Source: Streptacidiphilus jiangxiensis (GTDB lineage Bacteria > Actinomycetota > Actinomycetes > Streptomycetales > Streptomycetaceae). Taken from it: 64,000 nucleotides of DNA. Location: the NCBI RefSeq assembly GCF_900109465.1, contig NZ_FOAZ01000008.1, forward strand, positions 62,001-126,000. The letters are read 5' to 3'. This document shows positions 20,109 to 62,553 of the stretch, piece after piece. Position 1 is the first letter of the stretch. Each line of letters begins with the position of its first letter. Made by a program: the position numbers and the translations under genes. The notes beneath the pieces are model-generated. The model had not been told where the DNA came from. It made no database searches and saw only the letters and a list, made by a program, of their open reading frames with translations.

Positions 20109-20182
<74 letters not shown>

Positions 20183-20217: not shown

Positions 20218-21888
20218 TCACTTCTGCTTGTCGGAGTCCGGGATGCCGTTCTTGGTGGCCAGGGCGTAGGCCTGCTCCACGGTGAGGCCCTGGTAGGCGT
20301 TGGCGGAGGCGGGCATGCCCTCCAGGCGGTAGATGCTGGCCTTGGCGCACTGGACCGTGTCGCCCGCGACCTCGACGGAGGCGTCCTGCGTCGCCTGGCC
20401 GATGTTCGCCGGGGGCTTCGAGCCGGAGGAGCCGCTGCCGCTACCGACCTTCAGATCCGTGCCGACCACCACGTGGACGGTGGTCAGGCCGGGGGTCGCG
20501 GTGAGCGAGGAGTCGGGCAGGCCGAGGGCGGAGGCGACCTGCTGGGCCTCGCGCTTGTAGCGCGGGTCCGAGGCCGAGTACTCGACCTTGCTGGCGCCGG
20601 TCGGCATCGGGGTGTGCTCGACGATCGAGTTGGAGTAGCCCTTGCCGGCCAGCTCGGTCTGCACGGCCGCGGCGCGCCCCGAGATGCCGGTGCCGTTGAA
20701 GACGTGCACCTCGACGGTCGAGGGGTCGATCGTCTGCGCGGCCGAGGGGGTGGCCCCGGCGGTGGGCTTGGACGAGGACGAACCCGGGGTCAGCGACTGG
20801 TCGTTGGCGATCGCGTCGAACAGCTGCTGCGCATTCGGCTTCGGCACCAGCCAGGCGCTCGGCCGGTACGGGTCCTGGTCGTACGGCATGGTCGTGAAGG
20901 TGATCCGGTTGCTCGGGATGCCGCCCAGGGTGTTGGCGAGGCTGATCAGCTTGGTGACGCCGCTGAGGCCGTCGTCCACCTGGAACGCCTTGGAGCCCGC
21001 CTCGGCCAGGCTGTAGACGTTGGTGGGGTCGGCCAGCGTGCTGGCGCTCTTCATCTTGTGGATCAGCGCGCTGAGGAAGATGTGCTGGGTTGCGGCGCGG
21101 TCGGTGTCGCTGGCGCCGCCGAAGGCGTGGCGGGTGCGCAGGAACTCCAGCGCGCCCTGGCCGACCAGGGTGTGCTTGCCGGCGGGCAGCTTGAGGTGGG
21201 AGCCCGGGTCGTAGACGTTGTGGTCGGTGCAGACGTCGACGCCTCCGACGGCGTCGGACATGTTCACCACGCCGTCGAAGTCGACCATCATGAAGTGGTC
21301 GATGTGGATCCCGGTCAGGTTGTTGACCGCGGACACCGTGCAACCGGGGCCGTAGTTCAGGCTGTTGGTGATCTGGTCGTGCGTGGGGAAGTGGTACGTC
21401 TTCCCGTTCTGCGTGCAGTCCGGCATCGATGTGTCGGTGTCGCGCGGGATGCTCATCACGGTGGCGTTCTGGTGGTCCGCCGAGACGTGCAGCAGCATCT
21501 CCACATCGGCGTGCGGCAGCGAGTCGTCCTGCCCGCCGAGCGAGGCGTTCCCGCCGAGGCGGGTGTCCGAGCCGATGATCATGATGTTCATCGCGCCGGG
21601 GATGACCGCGCCCTTCTGCGGCGAGGAGCCGGTGTCCAGGGCGCTGTGCTTGATGTTGCTGTCCAGCTGGTAGATCCACGCGCACCCGGCGGCGGCCACC
21701 AGCACCACGAAGGCGCTGACGCCCATGGCTATTCGCTTCGCCCGCTTGCGGCGCTTGGCGCTGCCGCCCCTCGAGCCGCCACCGTTCGAGTCGCGGCGCC
21801 CGGTCCCGTGGCCGCCCCCACCTGTCCCGGGAGTCGGCGGGCCGTAAGCGGCTCGGCCGTCACCGAGGGAGTCAACGGGAGATGTCAT
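20218..21888 (-). CDS. LytR-CpsA-Psr (LCP) family protein with LytR_C domain, paralog A
   Basis: The 556-residue membrane protein starts at the ATG at 21888. A Gly/Arg-rich cytoplasmic head (1-55) precedes one membrane helix (about 54-74). The extracellular LCP catalytic domain covers about 95-265, with MNIMIIGSDTR, MSIPRDTDT and the phosphate-binding RTRHAF. A LytR_C domain follows at about 385-470 (VEVHVFNGTGISGRAAAVQ). LCP enzymes move undecaprenyl-linked wall polymers, such as teichoic acids or arabinogalactan-like glycans, onto peptidoglycan. The gene lies 36 bases upstream of tRNA-Pro in the same direction. It is followed on the promoter side by a second, very similar LCP gene, so the pair arose by tandem duplication. 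Confidence 0.92.
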   Translation of the reverse strand: MTSPVDSLGDGRAAYGPPTPGTGGGGHGTGRRDSNGGGSRGGSAKRRKRAKRIAMGVSAFVVLVAAAGCAWIYQLDSNIKHSALDTGSSPQKGAVIPGAMNIMIIGSDTRLGGNASLGGQDDSLPHADVEMLLHVSADHQNATVMSIPRDTDTSMPDCTQNGKTYHFPTHDQITNSLNYGPGCTVSAVNNLTGIHIDHFMMVDFDGVVNMSDAVGGVDVCTDHNVYDPGSHLKLPAGKHTLVGQGALEFLRTRHAFGGASDTDRAATQHIFLSALIHKMKSASTLADPTNVYSLAEAGSKAFQVDDGLSGVTKLISLANTLGGIPSNRITFTTMPYDQDPYRPSAWLVPKPNAQQLFDAIANDQSLTPGSSSSKPTAGATPSAAQTIDPSTVEVHVFNGTGISGRAAAVQTELAGKGYSNSIVEHTPMPTGASKVEYSASDPRYKREAQQVASALGLPDSSLTATPGLTTVHVVVGTDLKVGSGSGSSGSKPPANIGQATQDASVEVAGDTVQCAKASIYRLEGMPASANAYQGLTVEQAYALATKNGIPDSDKQK

Positions 21889-22026: not shown

Positions 22027-23667
22027 CTACTTCTGCTTGTCGGAGTCCGGGATGCCGTTCTTGGTGGCCAGCGCGTAGGCCTGCTCCACGGTGAGGCCCT
22101 GGTAGGCCGCCGCGGAGGCCGGGAGGCCGCCCAGCGGGAACGGGCTGGCCTGGGCGCACTTGACCGTGTCGCCGGCGATCTCGGCGGAGGCGCCCTGCGT
22201 CGCCTGGCCGATGTTGGCCGACGGCTTCGGGGCCGCCGAGCCGCTGCCGCTGCCGACCTTCAGGTCCGAGCCGACCACCACATGGACGGTGGTCAGGCCC
22301 GGCGTCACGGTGAGCGAGGAGGACGGCAGGCCCAGTGCGCTCGCCACCTGCTGCGCCTCGCGCTTGTACTGCGGGTCCGAGGCCGAGTACTCGACCTTGC
22401 TCGAGCTCACCGACATCGCGGTGTGCTCGACGATCGAGTTGGAGTAGCCCTTTCCGGCCAGCTCGGTCTGCACGGCCGCGGCCCGTCCGGGGACGCCGGT
22501 GCCGTTGAAGACGTGCACCTCGATGCTCGACGGGTCCACCGCCGCGCTCGCCGAGGCGGAGGCGCCCGCCGTGGGCTTGGTGGAGGAGCCACCGGACAGC
22601 GACTGGTCGTTGGCGATCGCGTTGAAGAGCTGCTGCGCGTTCGGGGCCGGCGCCAGCCAGGCGTTCGGGTTGTACGGGTCGTTGATCGCGGGCATGGTCA
22701 CGAAGGTGATGTGGCTCGTGGGGATGCCTGCGAGGGTGTTGGCCAGGCTGATCAGCTTGGTGATGCTGTTGAGGCCGTTGTCCACCTGGAACGCCCTGGT
22801 GGCGGCCTCGGCGAGGCTGTAGACGTTGGTCGGGTCCGCCAGCGTGCTGGCGCTCTTCATCTTGTGCATCAGCGCACTGAGGAAGATGTGCTGCGTCACC
22901 GTGCGGTCGATGTCGCTCGCGTTGCCGAACGCGTGGCGGGTGCGCAGGAACTCCAGCGCGCCCTGGCCGACCAGGGTGTGGGAGCCGGCGCTCAGCTTGA
23001 GGTGGGAGCCCGGGTCGTAGACGTTGTGGGTGGTGCAGACGTCGACGCCGCCGACGGCGTCGGACATGTTCACCACGCCGTCGAAGTCGACCACCATGAA
23101 GTGGTCGATGTGGACGCCGGTGAGCGCGTTGACCGCGGACACCGTGCAGCCCGGACCGTAGTTCAGGCTGTTGGTGATCTGGTCGTGCGCGCCGAAGTGG
23201 TACGTCTTCCCGTTCTGCGTGCAGTCCGGGATCTGCGTGTCGGTGTCGCGCGGGATGCTCATCACGGTGGCGTTCTGGTGGTCCGCCGAGACGTGCAGCA
23301 GCATCTCCACGTCGGCGTGCGGCAGCGAGTTGTCCTGCCCGCCGAGGGAGGCGTTGCCGCCGATGCGCGTGTCCGAGCCGATCAGCATGATGTTGATCGC
23401 GCCGGGGATCACGGCGCCCTTCTGCGGCGAGGAGCCGGTGTCCAGGGCGCTGTGCTTGATGTTGCTGTCCAGCTGGTAGACCCACGCGCAGCCCGCCGCG
23501 GCCACCAGCACCACGAAGGCGCTGACGCCCATGGCTATTCGCTTGCCGCGCTTCTTCGGCTTCGTCTTGCGGCGCCCCGTCGGGACGGCTCCTGCCGGAG
23601 CCGACTTGCCACGCCCGGCCCGACGTGCCGCAGCGCGGCCGCCGAACGACTCTTCGGGTGGTGTCAT
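22027..23667 (-). CDS. LytR-CpsA-Psr (LCP) family protein with LytR_C domain, paralog B
   Basis: The 546-residue protein starts at the ATG at 23667 with GGAGT upstream. It is collinear with paralog A across its whole length: same membrane helix (KRIAMGVSAFVVLVAAAG), same LCP core (INIMLIGSDTR, SIPRDTDTQ, RTRHAFGNASD) and same C-terminal NGIPDSDKQK. The differences cluster in the Arg/Gly-rich head and in the linker before LytR_C (residues about 355-385), where A has TPGSSSSKPTAGATPSAAQ and B has SGGSSTKPTAGASASAS. The two may work on different polymers or back each other up. The 138-bp gap to paralog A contains GGAACCGG..CCCGG-rich sequence but no clear terminator, so cotranscription is possible. 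Confidence 0.92.
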   Translation of the reverse strand: MTPPEESFGGRAAARRAGRGKSAPAGAVPTGRRKTKPKKRGKRIAMGVSAFVVLVAAAGCAWVYQLDSNIKHSALDTGSSPQKGAVIPGAINIMLIGSDTRIGGNASLGGQDNSLPHADVEMLLHVSADHQNATVMSIPRDTDTQIPDCTQNGKTYHFGAHDQITNSLNYGPGCTVSAVNALTGVHIDHFMVVDFDGVVNMSDAVGGVDVCTTHNVYDPGSHLKLSAGSHTLVGQGALEFLRTRHAFGNASDIDRTVTQHIFLSALMHKMKSASTLADPTNVYSLAEAATRAFQVDNGLNSITKLISLANTLAGIPTSHITFVTMPAINDPYNPNAWLAPAPNAQQLFNAIANDQSLSGGSSTKPTAGASASASAAVDPSSIEVHVFNGTGVPGRAAAVQTELAGKGYSNSIVEHTAMSVSSSKVEYSASDPQYKREAQQVASALGLPSSSLTVTPGLTTVHVVVGSDLKVGSGSGSAAPKPSANIGQATQGASAEIAGDTVKCAQASPFPLGGLPASAAAYQGLTVEQAYALATKNGIPDSDKQK

Positions 23668-23845: not shown

Positions 23846-23919
<74 letters not shown>

Positions 23920-44906: not shown

Positions 44907-45389
44907 ATGACGACGAACACGAACACGAAGACCGAGAACCCGCAGATCACCGTCCGCATCGCCGCGGACAAGCTGGCCCCCGCCGCGATGCGTGCGATGG
45001 TCGCGCTGGACAAGGCGACCTCCGGGAGCGACCTGGAGGTGGGCCTGAAGGAGCTGGTGCGGGCGCGTGCCTCGCAGATCAACGGCTGCGCCTACTGCGT
45101 CGACACCCACTCCGCCGACGCGCTGGCCGGCGGCGAGGACCAGCGGCGGCTGCTGCTGCTGCCGGTGTGGCAGGAGACGGGCCTGTTCTCGCGCCGCGAG
45201 CGTGCCGCGCTGGCGCTGACCGAGGCGGTCACCCGCCTGTCGGAGGGGCCGGTCCGGGACGAGGTGTGGTCCGCCGCGGCCGAGGAGTTCGAGGAGACCG
45301 AGCTCGCCGAGCTGCTCTGGCTGATCACCACCATCAACGCCTGGAACCGCGTCAGCGTCGCGGCGCAGGCCTGGCCCGTCAACGAGTGA
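44907..45389 (+). CDS. AhpD-like carboxymuconolactone decarboxylase family protein (MocR partner)
   Basis: The 160-residue protein keeps the AhpD motif Cys61-AY-Cys64 with His68 (NGCAYCVDTHSADA) and the C-terminal LLWLITTINAWNRVSV helix. It is clearly related to the CMD protein at 11.0-11.5 kb (same NGCAYC, ALTEAVTRL and INAWNR blocks) but has a different N-terminus (MTTNTNTKTENPQIT). It probably reduces peroxides or electrophiles. The divergent MocR gene is the likely regulator. Confidence 0.9.
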   Translation: MTTNTNTKTENPQITVRIAADKLAPAAMRAMVALDKATSGSDLEVGLKELVRARASQINGCAYCVDTHSADALAGGEDQRRLLLLPVWQETGLFSRRERAALALTEAVTRLSEGPVRDEVWSAAAEEFEETELAELLWLITTINAWNRVSVAAQAWPVNE

Positions 45390-45429
45390 AGGACGGACCA
45401 GGCGTGCGGCGCCGGGAGCGCGCCTCGGC

Positions 45430-47070
45430 TCAGTGGTTGAGGGCGACCTCGACGATCTTGACGACGACCAAGATCATCGCGATCAGCAGGTAGCCGCGGA
45501 GCGCGCTCATGCCGATCCTGCGGCCGGTGGCCATGGCGGGCCGGGTCAGCGTCTCCAGCGGCGGCATCCGCCAGTTGTCGCGGTCGGTCCGGTCGACGGG
45601 GTCCTCCTTGGTGGCGGTGCGGCGCTTGGTGAAGGCGTAGCCCGCCGCCAGGACCCCGGCGACTCCGCAGCCGGCCATGATGTCGATGATCGCGCCGGCG
45701 GTGATGTCCGGGAACAGCACCGAGGCCGTAAGGATGATCGACAGGGTGACCAGGACGCCGACGACGGCCGCCGTGAAGGCGTTGGTCCTGGGGCCGTTGA
45801 CCCACGGGCCGAGCACCTGCTTGTCGTTGCAGAGCAGCAGCAGGAAGACCGTCGCGGAGGGCAGCAGCACGCCCGCGAGCGTCTGCACGCCCTCGGTCAG
45901 CAGGCCCAGCGGCGAGCCGGGGATCAGCACGACCGCGGCCGCGAGGGCCACGATGCCGGCGTAGACGGCGTAGAAGCCCTTGGCGCCCTTGACCCCGCGG
46001 TGCAGCGAGTGCCTGATGCCGAAGACGTCACCGATCGCGTAGGCGGTGGAGAGCGAGACCGCGAACGCGCCGATGATCGAGGCGTCCAGCAGCGCGACGG
46101 CGAACAGCACCCCGGCGACCTTGCCCGCGTGGGCCTCGATGCCGTGCGCGAGCCCGGCCGCGTCCGTGAAGTTGCCGAAGCCGTCGGGACCGGTGGTGCC
46201 GGCGAACGCGGCGGCGGTCGCGCCCATCAGCGCGGCGGCGCCGACGACGACGATCACGATGCCGAGCCACAGGTCGGCCTTCTCGTACTTCATGAAGCGC
46301 GGGGTGATCCGCTTGTCGATGACGTAGCTCTGCTGGAAGAACAGCTGCCAGGGCGCGACGGTGGTGCCGACGATGCCGATGATCAGCAGCATCACGGTGG
46401 CGAGCTGGCCCTGCCCGCCCGGCAGGTTCGGGACCACGAAGTCGTGGGCCATCTGCGAGGTCTTCGGGTGGGACAGGAAGTAGATCGGCACCAGCAGCAG
46501 CGAGCCGGCGCAGAGCGCGATCGCGATCCGCTCGAAGCGCTGGAACGAACCGGTGAAGGCCGAGGCGACGATGATCGCGGCGGCGAGCACCACGGCGAGT
46601 GCCTTGGGCAGGCCCAGATAGCCCGCGGCCAGCGTGATCCCGATGAACTCCGTCACCAGCGTCAGTGCGTTGAGGATGAACAGGTCGATGACGCTGAACG
46701 CGCCCCAGAACCTGCCGAAGCGCTCCAGGATCAGCCGGGCGTGGCCCACCCCGGTGACCGCGCCCAGGCGGAGCACCATCTCCTGGTTGACGTAGAGCAC
46801 CGGCACGAGCAGCAGCAGCGTCCACAGCAGGTGGGTGCCGTAGTTCTGCCCGGCCTGGCCGTAGGTGGCGAAGGCGCCGGCGTCGTTGTCGCCGACCATG
46901 ACGATCAGGCCGGGGCCGACGATCGCGAGCAGCGTCTTGAGCTTCGCGGACAGGCCGCGGCGGTCGCCGTGGTCGTCGAGCCTGATGGTGCCGAGTGCGC
47001 CGCGGATGTCGCCGACGTGCGCGTCGTCGAGCACCGCCGAACGGGTCCGGGTGTCGATGGTGGTGGTCAT
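45430..47070 (-). CDS. NRAMP-family divalent metal transporter, probably magnesium (NRMT-like)
   Basis: The 546-residue protein starts at the ATG at 47070 with GGAGGG seven bases upstream. It has eleven or so membrane helices with the NRAMP fold. Helix 1 reads GPGLIVMVGDNDAGAFATY (Asp61-Asn62-Asp63) instead of the DPGN of Mn/Fe transporters, and helix 6 reads VAPWQLFFQQS near residue 235 where classical NRAMPs have the metal-binding MPH. Loss of the soft Met ligand is a mark of NRAMP-related magnesium transporters. The 5' leader contains an M-box, the Mg2+ riboswitch class, which supports magnesium as substrate. The gene is monocistronic and convergent with the CMD gene. Confidence 0.88.
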   Translation of the reverse strand: MTTTIDTRTRSAVLDDAHVGDIRGALGTIRLDDHGDRRGLSAKLKTLLAIVGPGLIVMVGDNDAGAFATYGQAGQNYGTHLLWTLLLLVPVLYVNQEMVLRLGAVTGVGHARLILERFGRFWGAFSVIDLFILNALTLVTEFIGITLAAGYLGLPKALAVVLAAAIIVASAFTGSFQRFERIAIALCAGSLLLVPIYFLSHPKTSQMAHDFVVPNLPGGQGQLATVMLLIIGIVGTTVAPWQLFFQQSYVIDKRITPRFMKYEKADLWLGIVIVVVGAAALMGATAAAFAGTTGPDGFGNFTDAAGLAHGIEAHAGKVAGVLFAVALLDASIIGAFAVSLSTAYAIGDVFGIRHSLHRGVKGAKGFYAVYAGIVALAAAVVLIPGSPLGLLTEGVQTLAGVLLPSATVFLLLLCNDKQVLGPWVNGPRTNAFTAAVVGVLVTLSIILTASVLFPDITAGAIIDIMAGCGVAGVLAAGYAFTKRRTATKEDPVDRTDRDNWRMPPLETLTRPAMATGRRIGMSALRGYLLIAMILVVVKIVEVALNH

Positions 47071-47184
47071 GGTGAATCCCTCCCTGTGGCCGTGAGGCCT
47101 GGTGGAGGGCATGCAGCATCCATCCGCCCTGCGAGCACCGAGCACACGGGCGCGCAGAATGGGGCGGTTCAGGAAGGCAGGTGG

Positions 47185-47262
47185 TTACCGCATGCCGGAA
47201 GAAGACGAGGTCAAGCGGGTGTCGTGGGGCCGTTTGTGGCCCGGACTAGGACTGCAGTCCAC
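47185..47262 (-). CDS. Possible 25-codon leader peptide between M-box and NRAMP-like gene
   Basis: A GTG at 47262 follows a strong ribosome site (GGAGGGAGG, nine bases upstream) and opens a 25-residue frame, VDCSPSPGHKRPHDTRL then TSSSSGMR, ending in TAA 114 bases before the transporter ATG. Three of the first twelve residues are Pro. A perfect palindrome GGACTGCAGTCC (47249-47260) adjoins the start codon and could hide it. Leader peptides with Pro codons modulate some Mg2+ transporter genes elsewhere; here this is a hypothesis from position and ribosome site only. Confidence 0.4.
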   Translation of the reverse strand: MDCSPSPGHKRPHDTRLTSSSSGMR

Positions 47263-47320
47263 TGCTTCTCGCCTCCCTCCGGTCAAGACGCACGCATCGC
47301 GCGGTACGTCGTAGCGGCAG

Positions 47321-47365
47321 GGGGCACACCGGACACGGATCGCCGACGCGGATCCGGTACACCCC
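47321..47365 (-). promoter_or_regulatory. Hairpin after the M-box aptamer (candidate expression platform)
   Basis: On the minus strand GGGGTGTACCGGA (47365-47353) pairs with TCCGGTGTGCCCC (47333-47321), 13 bp with three G-U pairs and a 19-base loop. It starts three bases after the aptamer's closing stem, the position expected for a regulatory hairpin. Confidence 0.5.
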
Positions 47366-47367
47366 AA

Positions 47368-47517
47368 CTCGTCAGAGCTTTGGCACTCCACGGCGTAGCA
47401 CTCGCGTGCAGCCACTTGGCCTCAACCCTTAGGTCGGGAAGAGGTGTCCTGATCCGGAGCGTCTCTCGACGGTTGGGATCAGTGGCCTGTGTCCGTGAAG
47501 ACGCCTCACCGAACGAG
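47368..47517 (-). ncRNA. M-box (ykoK leader) magnesium riboswitch aptamer
   Basis: Reading the minus strand from 47517, the conserved M-box blocks appear in order: GGTGAGGC, ACACAGGCCACTG, GTCGAGAGACGC, GGATCAGGACA, AAGTGGCTGC, and the end block GTGGAGTGCCAAAGCTCT. The closing stem P1 pairs CTCGT (47517-47513) with ACGAG (47372-47368). Length is about 150 bases, as expected. M-boxes fold compactly at high Mg2+ and switch off Mg2+ transporter genes; here the downstream gene is the NRAMP-like transporter. The match was made by eye to the remembered consensus. Confidence 0.88.
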
Positions 47518-47542
47518 GTGTCTCTCTCGTAAGAACTCCACC

Positions 47543-47572
47543 ATGGTTGCTCTCGTGCACGTGGGGTGTCAA
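47543..47572 (-). promoter_or_regulatory. Promoter of the M-box/NRAMP transcript
   Basis: A perfect TTGACA (-35, 47572-47567) and a weak AACCAT (-10, 47548-47543) are separated by 18 bp on the minus strand. Initiation would fall about 20 bases before the aptamer. Confidence 0.4.
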
Positions 47573-47589
47573 ATGCGTTGACGCGACCT

Positions 47590-48639
47590 TTACGCCTTTT
47601 GCCGGGCCAGGTCCGTGTGCCGAGCGTCGGCTCCGCTGCGGCCCGCCGGCAGGTCCGGGAGCGCCGCCGGGACCGGCAGCACGCCCGGGAGCGCCGCCGG
47701 GCCCGGCAGCTGGTCCGGAAGCGCCGCCGGGCCCGACAGCAGGTCCGGCAGCAGGTCCGCTGTGCGGGAGAAGCGGAAGCCGAGGGTCTCGGCGCGGGTC
47801 GTGTCCATCGCGTAGGCGCGTTCGAACGAGAACGGCGAGGCGGGCGCCCCGACCTCGACGATCGCCGCCGGGTCGATGGCCAATGCCAACTCCCGTGCGG
47901 TCAAAGTCCCCTGGCCGGCCGCGTTGACCGGCCCGGTGAACTCGGCGGCTGCCGTCCAGGCCAGGAACCGGGCGATCTCCGGCGCGTGGACGAACGAGGC
48001 CGGCTGCGGGTCGGGGTGGACCAGGATCGGCCGACGGGCGGCGATCCGCTCCGTGTAGTGGGCGAGCCGCCCGGTGAAGTCACCGTCGCCCAGCACGTGG
48101 GCGGTTCGCACGCTCGTGAACGTGCTGTCCGCCGAGGCGAAGGCCGCCTGCAGGACGGCCTCGGCCTGGCGCTTGCCCTCACCGTAGTGGCGGTCGAGGA
48201 AATCCGGTTCGTGCCACGGGAGTTCCGGCCGGATCCGGACCGCGGCGAGATCGACGGCGTCCTCGGTGAGCGTCGGACCGTGCGGGCGTCCGAGTTCCGC
48301 GTAGACCTCGACGGTCGAGGTCATCACGTACCGCGCCGTGCGGCCCGCGAACACCCGTGCCGCGACGGCTGCTTGGCGCGGCGTGTAGCAGACCTGGTCC
48401 ACGACGGCGTCGAAGCGCCGCTCGCCCAGCGCCGCGTGCAGCGCCGCCTCGTCGTCACGGTCCGCCCGCGCGTGCGTGACGCCCTGTGGCGGTGGCGCGG
48501 AGCCTCGGTTGACGACGGTGACCTCGGCTCCGGCCGCGCACAGCTCCGTGACCAGGAGCCGTCCGAAGTAGCGGCTCCCGCCGATCACGGCGACGGAGCG
48601 TCCGGCGAGAGCCGCGAGGGGTTGGCGCGTGTGGTCCAT
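47590..48639 (-). CDS. NAD-dependent epimerase/dehydratase with repetitive C-terminal tail
   Basis: The 349-residue protein starts at the ATG at 48639; a GTG seven codons earlier is possible. A Rossmann fold begins with VAVIGGSRYFGRLLV (near 18; G-G-x-x-x-x-G), followed by VVNRGSAPPPQGV and MTSTVEVYAELG. The usual YxxxK appears as HYGEGKRQAE near 158 (Tyr, then Lys four on). It belongs to the extended atypical SDR group with NAD-dependent reductase-like members. From about residue 305 the sequence turns into 10-residue repeats rich in Pro, Ala and Leu (GPAALPD, GPAALPG, VPAALPD), encoded by 30-bp DNA repeats. The divergent LysR gene, 70 bp away, is the likely regulator. Confidence 0.82.
   Translation of the reverse strand: MDHTRQPLAALAGRSVAVIGGSRYFGRLLVTELCAAGAEVTVVNRGSAPPPQGVTHARADRDDEAALHAALGERRFDAVVDQVCYTPRQAAVAARVFAGRTARYVMTSTVEVYAELGRPHGPTLTEDAVDLAAVRIRPELPWHEPDFLDRHYGEGKRQAEAVLQAAFASADSTFTSVRTAHVLGDGDFTGRLAHYTERIAARRPILVHPDPQPASFVHAPEIARFLAWTAAAEFTGPVNAAGQGTLTARELALAIDPAAIVEVGAPASPFSFERAYAMDTTRAETLGFRFSRTADLLPDLLSGPAALPDQLPGPAALPGVLPVPAALPDLPAGRSGADARHTDLARQKA
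47650..47751. repeat. 30-bp tandem repeat in the epimerase 3' end
   Basis: Three 30-bp units (47650-47679, 47680-47709, 47710-47739; core AGCGCCGCCGGG) and a partial fourth. The unit is a multiple of three, so reading frame is kept and each encodes about ten residues of the C-terminal tail. Confidence 0.85.
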
Positions 48640-61251: not shown

Positions 61252-62553
61252 TCAGATCATGCCGCTACCGGACGGTACGTCACCACCGGACACTATGCCG
61301 TCCTCCGAGTCCTCTTCGTCACACAGTCGCTGATACTTCCGGTTCCGCATCCGCAGCAGGACGGACGCCGCCACCGCGCAGATCACGGAGCCCACCAGCA
61401 CCGCCGCCTTGGCGCGTTCGGTGAGCTCGGGATTGCCGGAGAAGGCCAGCTCGGCGATGAGCAGCGAGACGGTGAAGCCGATACCGGAGAGCACCGAGAT
61501 CGAGAAGAGATCGGCCCAGGCCAGTTCGGGATTCAGCTCCGCCCGGGTGAACCGTGCCGTCAGCCAGGTGCCGCCGAAGACGCCGAAGGTCTTGCCCACC
61601 ACGAGCCCGAGCACGACACCGAGTGGCGCAGCCTCGGTGAAGACCTGGCCGAGGGCATGGGGGCTGATGGAGACGCCGGCCGCGAAGAGCGCGAAGACGG
61701 GCACGCAGAAGCCGGCCGAGAACGGGCGGACCAGGTGCTCGATGTGCTCGCCCGGCGCGTGCTCCTCGCCCGGGTCCTTGGTCACCCGCAGCATCAGCCC
61801 CATCGCCACGCCGGCCACCGTGGCGTGCACGCCGCCCTCGTGCATGAGCGCCCAGATCAGCACGGCGAGTGGCACGTACAGGTACCAGCCGTGCACCCGG
61901 GCCCGGTGCAGCACGTAGAAGAGGATCAGGCCGAGCAGCGCGAGCCCCAGTGCCCAGGGCTTGACGCCGTGGCTGTAGAAGATCGCGATGATCAGGATCG
62001 CGATCAGGTCGTCCACCACCGCCAGGGTCAGCAGGAAGGCCCGCAGGGGCGAGGGCAGGTGGGAGCCGACGACGGCCAGCACGCCCAGCGCGAAGGCGAT
62101 GTCCGTCGCCGTGGGGATGGCCCAGCCGCCCAGGTGACCACCGGGCCCGCTGTTGATGAGGACGTCGATGACGGCCGGCAGGGCGACTCCGCACACCGCG
62201 GCGGCGACCGGCAGCAGGGCGGCCCGCGGATCGCGCAGCTCGCCCACCACGAGCTCGCGCTTGAGCTCGATGCCGGCCACGAAGAAGAAGACGGTGAGCA
62301 GGCCGTCCTTGGCCCAGTCGGCGAGCGTCAGGTTCAGGTGGAGCGGCGTGCTCGGGCCGATCGTGTAGTTGCTGACGCTCTCGTAGGAACCGGGCCACGC
62401 GTTCGCCCAGACGAGTGCGACCACCGCGGCCACCAGGAGCAGGATGCCGCCGACCGTCTCCGCCCGCAGGGCGTCCGCGATGAAGGCGCGTTCCGGCAGG
62501 GGGAGCCTGGCAAGGAACTGGCGGCGCGGCGTCGGCGTCGGCTCGCTGCTCAC
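61252..62553 (-). CDS. nhaA: Na+/H+ antiporter NhaA
   Basis: The 433-residue protein has about twelve membrane helices. The ion-binding site is intact: ATDIAFALGVLAV near 150 and the paired Asp in LTLAVVDDLIAI near 182. GIELKRELVVGELRDPRAA near 99 and the GIGFTVSLLIAELAF segment near 375 are also typical. It exchanges external protons for internal sodium, giving salt and pH tolerance. The start is the GTG at 62553, nine bases after GAGG; a GTG five codons earlier is possible. The C-tail is acidic (CDEEDSEDG). The gene precedes the holin-family gene and follows acs. Confidence 0.95.
   Translation of the reverse strand: MSSEPTPTPRRQFLARLPLPERAFIADALRAETVGGILLLVAAVVALVWANAWPGSYESVSNYTIGPSTPLHLNLTLADWAKDGLLTVFFFVAGIELKRELVVGELRDPRAALLPVAAAVCGVALPAVIDVLINSGPGGHLGGWAIPTATDIAFALGVLAVVGSHLPSPLRAFLLTLAVVDDLIAILIIAIFYSHGVKPWALGLALLGLILFYVLHRARVHGWYLYVPLAVLIWALMHEGGVHATVAGVAMGLMLRVTKDPGEEHAPGEHIEHLVRPFSAGFCVPVFALFAAGVSISPHALGQVFTEAAPLGVVLGLVVGKTFGVFGGTWLTARFTRAELNPELAWADLFSISVLSGIGFTVSLLIAELAFSGNPELTERAKAAVLVGSVICAVAASVLLRMRNRKYQRLCDEEDSEDGIVSGGDVPSGSGMI

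Follow-up and report, generated by a model that had tools for sequence, protein, structure and literature searches.

We identified in the genome of Streptacidiphilus jiangxiensis an M-box riboswitch and a small upstream open reading frame (uORF) in front of a gene for a transporter of the NRAMP family, and we consider it fairly probable that they form a magnesium-responsive OFF switch in which the M-box controls an NRAMP-type magnesium importer by way of the uORF. The locus lies on the minus strand of a 64,000-nucleotide stretch, hereafter the window (positions 62,001 to 126,000 of contig NZ_FOAZ01000008.1), and its coordinates are given as positions in that stretch. Because an M-box ahead of an NRAMP-related magnesium transporter (NRMT) was already published for Clostridium in 2014 (PMC4072509; here and below, papers are cited for the portions consulted), we present the locus as a new member of a known arrangement. 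What is added here is a distinct transporter clade and an M-box uORF platform that recurs across actinobacteria.

The M-box (ykoK leader) aptamer, RF00380, matched at 47524-47356 with 139.5 bits (gathering threshold 44, E 2.1e-31) in a search of the whole window (cmscan, Rfam), and the match ran the full length of the model (positions 1-169 of 169). The preliminary description of this DNA had read an M-box on this strand at 47517-47368, with a closing stem that pairs, and had named the covariance-model search as a check; both readings were borne out, with the closing stem P1 formed by CACCUC and GGGGUG. In a genome-wide search, this aptamer was the sole RF00380 match in the 9,537,027 bases of the genome. 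We predict that its ligand is Mg2+.

The comparisons below use 165 M-box leaders, drawn from 30 of 64 matches in one genome set, 47 in another, and 91 listed for the genomes of transporter homologues (50 beside the homologues and 41 elsewhere); these sets overlap, and 160 leaders were distinct. An NRAMP label applied to 97 of the 165 leaders and to 92 of the 160 distinct ones (93 when more queries were used). The terms mycobacterial-type and Catenulispora-type are labels inferred from PPE genes and coinciding named loci, while actinobacterial and Pseudomonadota follow the organism names of the homologues. Alignment A1 comprises 57 streptomycete-type leaders chosen by their uORF peptide pattern, and frame statistics inside A1 are conditioned on that choice.

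A simple consensus scan of 45300-47700 found no intrinsic-terminator-like site, such as a terminator-type M-box (ykoK of B. subtilis) carries. Most M-boxes are described as acting through an intrinsic terminator (PMC4072509), whereas the window leader instead has an anti-Shine-Dalgarno sequence (anti-SD), a uORF, and a C-rich stretch. A sigma-70-pattern promoter scan also returned nothing, and a TTGACA ahead of the aptamer was spotted by eye only. The elements of the platform follow one another in A1 in the order GGGGUG (the 3′ strand of P1, 47365-47360), a variable hairpin H1 (ACCGGAU/GUCCGGU, 47358-47328), the anti-SD (GCCCCCUGCCG, 47325-47315), a variable spacer, and the uORF Shine-Dalgarno (SD) sequence (GGAGGGAGG, 47280-47272, conserved in place). 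The A1 consensus is GCUCCUUGCCG for the anti-SD and CGG(A/G)AGGAGG or CGGAGGGAGG for the SD, and the distance from aptamer to SD varies freely. The anti-SD has two possible partners, GGGGUG, in an extension of H1 (six of six pairs in the window), or the uORF SD, and both pairings are feasible in nearly all 57 leaders.

We take the first pairing as the ON structure and the second, with P1 closed, as the OFF structure; switching between them is a prediction from the alignment. The ON structure was paired in 93.9% of cells and had both-side changes in 8 pairs and 44 cells, compared with 3.3 and 9.3 after shuffling (0/500), and its covariation score of 0.242 compared with a maximum of 0.102 when the structure was slid along the alignment. 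Seven of the 13 pairs of the ON helix had both-side changes. Because 41 of the 44 cells lie in H1, with one in the GGGGUG/anti-SD pairs and two in a hairpin of the uORF, H1 is well supported, and its extension draws support from the consistency of the pairing (each pair can form in 50 to 57 of the 57 leaders) rather than from covariation. The OFF structure was paired in 95.7% of cells compared with at most 59.3% when slid (98.2% for the P1 3′ strand within P1 and 94.0% for the anti-SD with the uORF SD), and it contained 9 both-side cells compared with 4.2 in shuffles (5/500). The clearest change in the OFF helix, U-A to C-G, occurs in six leaders, all from the genus of the window, and the minimum-energy fold of the window leader places the anti-SD on the uORF SD. 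A further candidate helix, between the uORF SD and CCACCUUCC downstream of the uORF stop, was paired in 88.1% of cells with covariation absent (279/500) and was dropped.

The same order, with SD1 at the aptamer end followed by the anti-SD and the uORF SD and with no intrinsic terminator, is found at the pe20 M-box of Mycobacterium tuberculosis (uORF2/Rv1805A), where reporter and Rho-depletion evidence backs it (PMC12810186). The two-partner anti-SD of that system is present in our leaders, with covariation strong for H1 and weak elsewhere. The uORF starts 82-127 nt past the aptamer in mycobacterial-type loci and 93 nt past it in the window. The two differ in that the pe20 M-box controls PE/PPE genes (PMC12810186), whereas the window M-box precedes a transporter. 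M. tuberculosis also has a first uORF between the aptamer and SD2; open reading frames (ORFs) occurred at that place in some of our leaders, and no conserved peptide was noticed among them by eye.

The uORF itself, which the preliminary description did not mention, has a GTG start behind a strong SD and runs for 25 codons plus stop (MDCSPSPGHKRPHDTRLTSSSSGMR, 47262-47185). When we applied a strict rule that required GGAGG followed by an ATG or GTG, 10-50 codons, and a position 20-300 nt past the aptamer, such a uORF was present in 133 of the 160 leaders, the window included, compared with a mean of 4.05 and a maximum of 7 in 20 rounds of dinucleotide shuffling. It was found in 84 of 92 leaders before NRMT-like genes and in 49 of 68 before other genes. 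This recurrence bears on the possibility that control by the M-box is exerted directly on the transporter gene, through the gene's own SD or by uORF-independent termination, and that the uORF has no regulatory role. The gene's SD (GGGAGGG, 47084-47078) can pair, by sequence, with CCCUCC at 47109-47104 and is mostly paired when folded (median 0.8 in 44 leaders, a value without a control that we did not use as evidence), and the main termination site of the M. tuberculosis system lies upstream of uORF2 (PMC12810186), a point that also counts against control through the uORF. We nevertheless regard direct action as unlikely, because the window has no intrinsic-terminator-like site, the anti-SD and both of its partners precede the uORF, 245 nt from the gene start, and the uORF is kept ahead of unlike genes.

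We next consider what the uORF is conserved for. It contains a hairpin (GGGCC-ACAAAC-GGCCC, 47242-47227) that was paired in 94.4% of cells, with one both-side pair, U-A for C-G, in two sequences. When leaders were searched from the hairpin core rather than from the peptide, the start and the core were in frame in 71 of 74 leaders at distances of 3 to 21 nt (78 leaders, less four without an SD-preceded start: L156, L013, L026, and L037); among the three exceptions, an in-frame ATG stands just past the counted GTG in L031 and in L036, and L172 has none. This frame conservation, together with M-x(2-8)-S-[PSR] as a pattern of the peptide (122 of 133 uORFs compared with 73 after shuffling), would suit a peptide that is itself functional and serves as a small regulatory protein, a role proposed for Rv1805A. 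We find that explanation improbable. Variability at codon positions 1, 2, and 3 was 0.224, 0.188, and 0.178 in the streptomycete-type set (57 leaders) and 0.266, 0.245, and 0.264 in the mycobacterial-type set (27 leaders), so that third positions were no more variable than first positions in the two larger sets. Crude pN/pS was 0.83 and 0.76 in the same two sets (two subsets of the latter gave 1.07 and 0.67). The Catenulispora-type set was small (12 leaders, two of them others); its pN/pS was 0.82 and its third position was the most variable (0.107, 0.120, 0.150), which favors a peptide; with the third-position excess absent from the larger sets, we dropped peptide-level selection as a candidate. 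In addition, SPGHxRP is a reading of the conserved, paired GGGCC-GGCCC hairpin, and the serine-rich end of the peptide is a reading of the C-rich tract.

That tract points to a constraint on the RNA. Rho prefers C-rich, G-poor RNA, and a rut-like stretch of this kind occupies the second half of the uORF and beyond (47230-47153). The C/G ratio over 78 nt from the hairpin was 2.33 in the window, with a median of 2.12 (1.32-2.73) in the 57 leaders. For comparison, the ratio was 0.95 over the aptamer and, in 48 leaders, 1.18 over the opening 600 nt of the gene. Because the uORF has little synonymous excess and a C-rich 3′ half, we favor an RNA-level constraint related to Rho loading, in which the reading frame would be kept for ribosomes and the underlying RNA for Rho; translation of the uORF and action of Rho are both predicted on this basis.

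When leaders were scored with a nucleotide profile of the streptomycete-type SD and uORF, all 12 of the Catenulispora-type leaders exceeded the highest of 515 shuffles, as did 16 of 32 mycobacterial-type leaders and 23 of 59 others. The matches were mostly positioned at the uORF, with the SD making up part of most of them; single mycobacterial-type scores were weak (E values from 0.007 upward), and the 59 include several streptomycete leaders outside the training set. The pe20 uORF peptide was called mycobacteria-specific by the authors who described it (PMC12810186). Because the streptomycete-type profile also matches Catenulispora-type and other leaders, the uORF is probably not mycobacteria-specific and would occur in streptomycetes and others as well. 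Among the open-licence papers listed in our literature searches, none was seen to describe this platform in organisms other than mycobacteria, and it is not treated in the consulted portions of PMC3766115, PMC9495176, and PMC12121620.

The early codons of the uORF raise the further idea that actinobacterial M-box leaders are double magnesium sensors, in which the aptamer and a ribosome-sensing uORF jointly decide Rho termination; we regard this as speculative and rather unlikely. Early acidic and proline codons would make ribosomes fall off at low Mg2+, and fall-off of this kind is also a feature of mgtL. In Salmonella, mgtQ is likewise a short uORF before a magnesium transporter with acidic residues near its start (PMC8092293), although the consulted portions mention no M-box there and describe a ribosome destabilization that is not evidenced at the window. 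Aspartate or glutamate occurred within uORF residues 2-6 in 99 of 133 uORFs (shuffled mean 37, maximum 54). Against a double sensor, early acidic residues are missing from most Catenulispora-type uORFs, which carry lysine as the second residue, and the GA letters may owe their conservation to the RNA.

Returning to an OFF switch that works through the uORF, we propose the following sequence of events. At high Mg2+ the M-box would close and bury GGGGUG in P1, the freed anti-SD would pair with the uORF SD, and the uORF would go untranslated, leaving its C-rich 3′ half bare so that Rho could stop transcription ahead of the transporter. At low Mg2+, P1 would open and GGGGUG would capture the anti-SD in the extended hairpin; ribosomes on the uORF would then cover the Rho-loading stretch, and the transporter would be made and import Mg2+.

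The transporter, P0001, has 546 residues and is encoded from an ATG at 47070 to a stop at 45430. Pfam assigned it to the general Nramp family (260.6 bits). The NCBIfam MntH model gave 89 bits compared with a cut-off of 430, and the NCBIfam general Nramp equivalog gave 49.7 compared with a cut-off of 50; the expectation that routine annotation would name the gene a manganese transporter was thus only partly right. The top sequence match in the PDB was EleNRMT of Eggerthella lenta (7qia, 172 bits), followed by the Nramp of Bacteroides fragilis (71 bits). We placed P0001 in a tree of 71 proteins (36 of the loci collected, 29 Nramp-family loci, and six references; L221 was omitted as short), which is unrooted and carries a long-branch warning that includes the B. 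fragilis Nramp and a paralogue from the window's own genome. In this tree, 21 MntH rows, including those of Escherichia coli, Deinococcus radiodurans, and Staphylococcus capitis, split off at 100/100 with P0001 outside them. The other side held the window clade (30 rows, 97/98), a mycobacterial-type sister (6 rows, 100/98), and the EleNRMT group (10 rows, 98/94), and the NRMT rows, the window clade, and the mycobacterial-type sister shared a branch at 100/99. The nearest protein in the tree was from Streptacidiphilus anmyonensis (L033, 93-94% identical). An AlphaFold model of P0001 (mean pLDDT 76, pTM 0.80) was matched by Foldseek to 7qia at 4.1e-17 compared with 1.5e-12 for the first MntH.

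The metal site agrees with this placement. The preliminary description had pointed to GDNDAG in helix 1 and APWQ in helix 6 and to loss of the soft methionine ligand; the two motifs are indeed present (residues 60-65 and 239-242) and do not vary among 33 aligned homologues, and A239 stands where manganese carriers have methionine. The site residues D63-A-G-A66, T236-T-V-A239, P-W241, Q246, E141, and Q396 lie in invariant columns of 33 aligned homologues, V238 being nearly invariant. Among the best 80 of 572 confirmed homologues, GDNDAGA and GTT[VI]APW occurred in 80 of 80 and DPGN in none. Manganese and iron NRAMPs have DxxN in helix 1 and A/CxxM in helix 6, whereas NRMTs have DxxG and TxxA/T; in EleNRMT, Trp and Asn replace the two His, Glu in helix 3 and Gln in helix 10 are retained, and loss of the helix-6 threonine makes Mg2+ transport undetectable (PMC8806188). 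With residue roles taken from that work and positions matched via an alignment, P0001 shares with EleNRMT the helix-1 Asp, the helix-6 Thr and Ala (TxxA), the helix-3 Glu, the helix-10 Gln, and a Trp in place of His. It thus has the helix 6 of an NRMT, without the methionine and with the His replaced, and lacks both the DPGN and the A/CxxM plus His of MntH. It differs from EleNRMT in having DxxA rather than DxxG, in an identity of about 30%, and in its greater length, and both of its additional parts lie outside the region matched to EleNRMT: an N-terminal stretch, present in the clade and rich in invariant residues, before helix 1 (residues 12-29, LDDAHVGDIRGALGTI) and, toward the C terminus, a conserved WRMPPL stretch with a helix after it (residues 500-543, helix 515-543).

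The covariance match and the tree position support the earlier assignment to magnesium rather than manganese, and Mg2+ is the predicted substrate. In C. acetobutylicum, nrmT (Ca_c0685, Ca_c3329) is likewise an NRAMP-related gene outside the MntH groups behind an M-box, and there Mg2+ transport and repression by Mg2+ were demonstrated; NrmT-type genes were found mostly in Clostridia and Deltaproteobacteria (PMC4072509). That P0001 is instead an MntH-kind manganese or iron carrier, with the M-box incidental or sensing another metal, is quite improbable given the 100/100 split, the site motifs, the low MntH score, and the absence of MntH behind 160 M-box leaders in the downstream DNA examined, even though Pfam names only the general family, EleNRMT also moves Mn2+ in vitro (PMC8806188), and an NrmT relative of A. 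capsulatum rescued a manganese defect and behaves as a manganese carrier (PMC4072509), the last a point against a magnesium importer here.

We examined how far the M-box and NRMT-like genes occur together. Of the best 80 homologues, 79 loci were searched (L108 was left out, and some loci had little upstream DNA, such as 383 nt in L092), and 49 had an RF00380 match 231-469 nt upstream on the same strand. Pairing was by coordinate and strand, without contig names, and a GCCAAA check failed in 3 of the 49 nearest (L081, L083, and L099), which were retained. Downstream of the 160 distinct leaders, an Nramp-type gene best matched by P0001 was found in 91 and one of the own-genome paralogue type in 2, with MntH the best match in none; the downstream DNA was mostly 1.5 to 6 kb (less than 1 kb in four leaders), and distant genes would be missed. 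In one mycobacterial-type genome with four Nramp-family genes and three M-boxes (G198), one M-box precedes the NRMT-like gene and, at the coordinates listed, none precedes the other three. The full mycobacterial-type loci have DxxG (GDNDAGG) in 6 of 6 cases, as does L121, and the 'Mn2+-type' mycobacterial M-box class described by others (PMC12810186) may consist of NRMT-like genes, to judge from L184, L186, L188, L192, L195, and L198.

Several observations weigh against our reading. Thirty of the 79 homologue loci have no upstream M-box; 17 are actinobacterial and 13 belong to Burkholderia, Paraburkholderia, Caballeronia, Bradyrhizobium, Aquitalea, and Paludibacterium, which we take to be Pseudomonadota and in which none of the loci searched had one. 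The strict rule found no uORF in 27 of 160 leaders. Covariation of the OFF structure was weak (3 both-side pairs compared with 2.1 in shuffles, 126/500), its pair types were no more than those of shuffles (400/500), and slid versions had as many as 14 both-side cells (at -3) and scored up to 0.070 (at +1) compared with 0.068. P1 hardly varies and so proves nothing, and the six GGGGUG/anti-SD pairs carry a single both-side change over 57 leaders. The folding energy of the window leader was ordinary (z -0.69) and was dropped as evidence. When only folds were compared, the model was closest to EleNRMT, but VIA-align put one MntH structure level with it (Z 37.5 and 37.2 compared with 36.9), so sequence and tree carry the NRMT assignment and the fold is in agreement with them. 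Finally, because helix 1 reads DxxA (80 of the best 80 of 572 homologues) and not the DxxG of NRMTs, we conclude that P0001 represents an NRMT-like sister clade, not a strict NRMT, that probably works like an NRMT.

Other observations concern magnesium genes and M-boxes more widely. The window genome has two CorA genes and no match to the MgtE channel family. It also has a second NRMT-type gene without an M-box (L111, contig C70:138708-139754), preceded by a gene that we read as encoding a protein with an MgtE-like N-terminal domain and CBS domains. In two genomes of the window genus (L022 and L026), an M-box precedes a protein of this MgtE/CBS-like kind. An NrmT gene behind an MgtE-domain protein was described for other NrmT genes (PMC4072509). 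Some streptomycete-type genomes have 5 to 8 M-boxes (G045, G004, G091, and G104), and some M-boxes form clusters that span a few kb and involve both strands, or are arranged back to back (G104:C2:259936-277003, with L148, L159, L160, L165, and L174; G103:C361:10199-13094; G004:C15:21906-22468). Other genes behind M-boxes, which we named by reading their sequences, are presumably MgtC-like, CorA-like, MgtE-domain, P-type ATPase, PPE, and ileS-linked small genes and genes for small unknown proteins. Families of small proteins (about 60-100 residues) recur behind actinobacterial M-boxes (L143, L146, L017, L028, L165, L168, L172, and L175; L149, L150, L151, L159, and L161; L027, L125, and L129), and these may be magnesium-stress proteins; Pfam at E up to 0.1 gave no family for four of them (one from each of three families and one ileS-linked mycobacterial-type). 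Elsewhere in the window, two identical tRNA genes on the minus strand (20109-20182 and 23846-23919) bracket tandem similar proteins (ORFs 20218-21888 and 22027-23667), which we take to be LytR-CpsA-Psr family cell-wall enzymes and which perhaps reflect a local duplication.

If our reading is correct, the M-box would help to separate magnesium from manganese NRAMPs in actinobacteria, and the mycobacterial M-box loci described as manganese-type (PMC12810186) may in fact encode transporters of magnesium. The uORF, described as specific for mycobacteria, would be a wider part of actinobacterial M-box switches, and the question of its role would shift from the peptide toward the RNA and Rho function.

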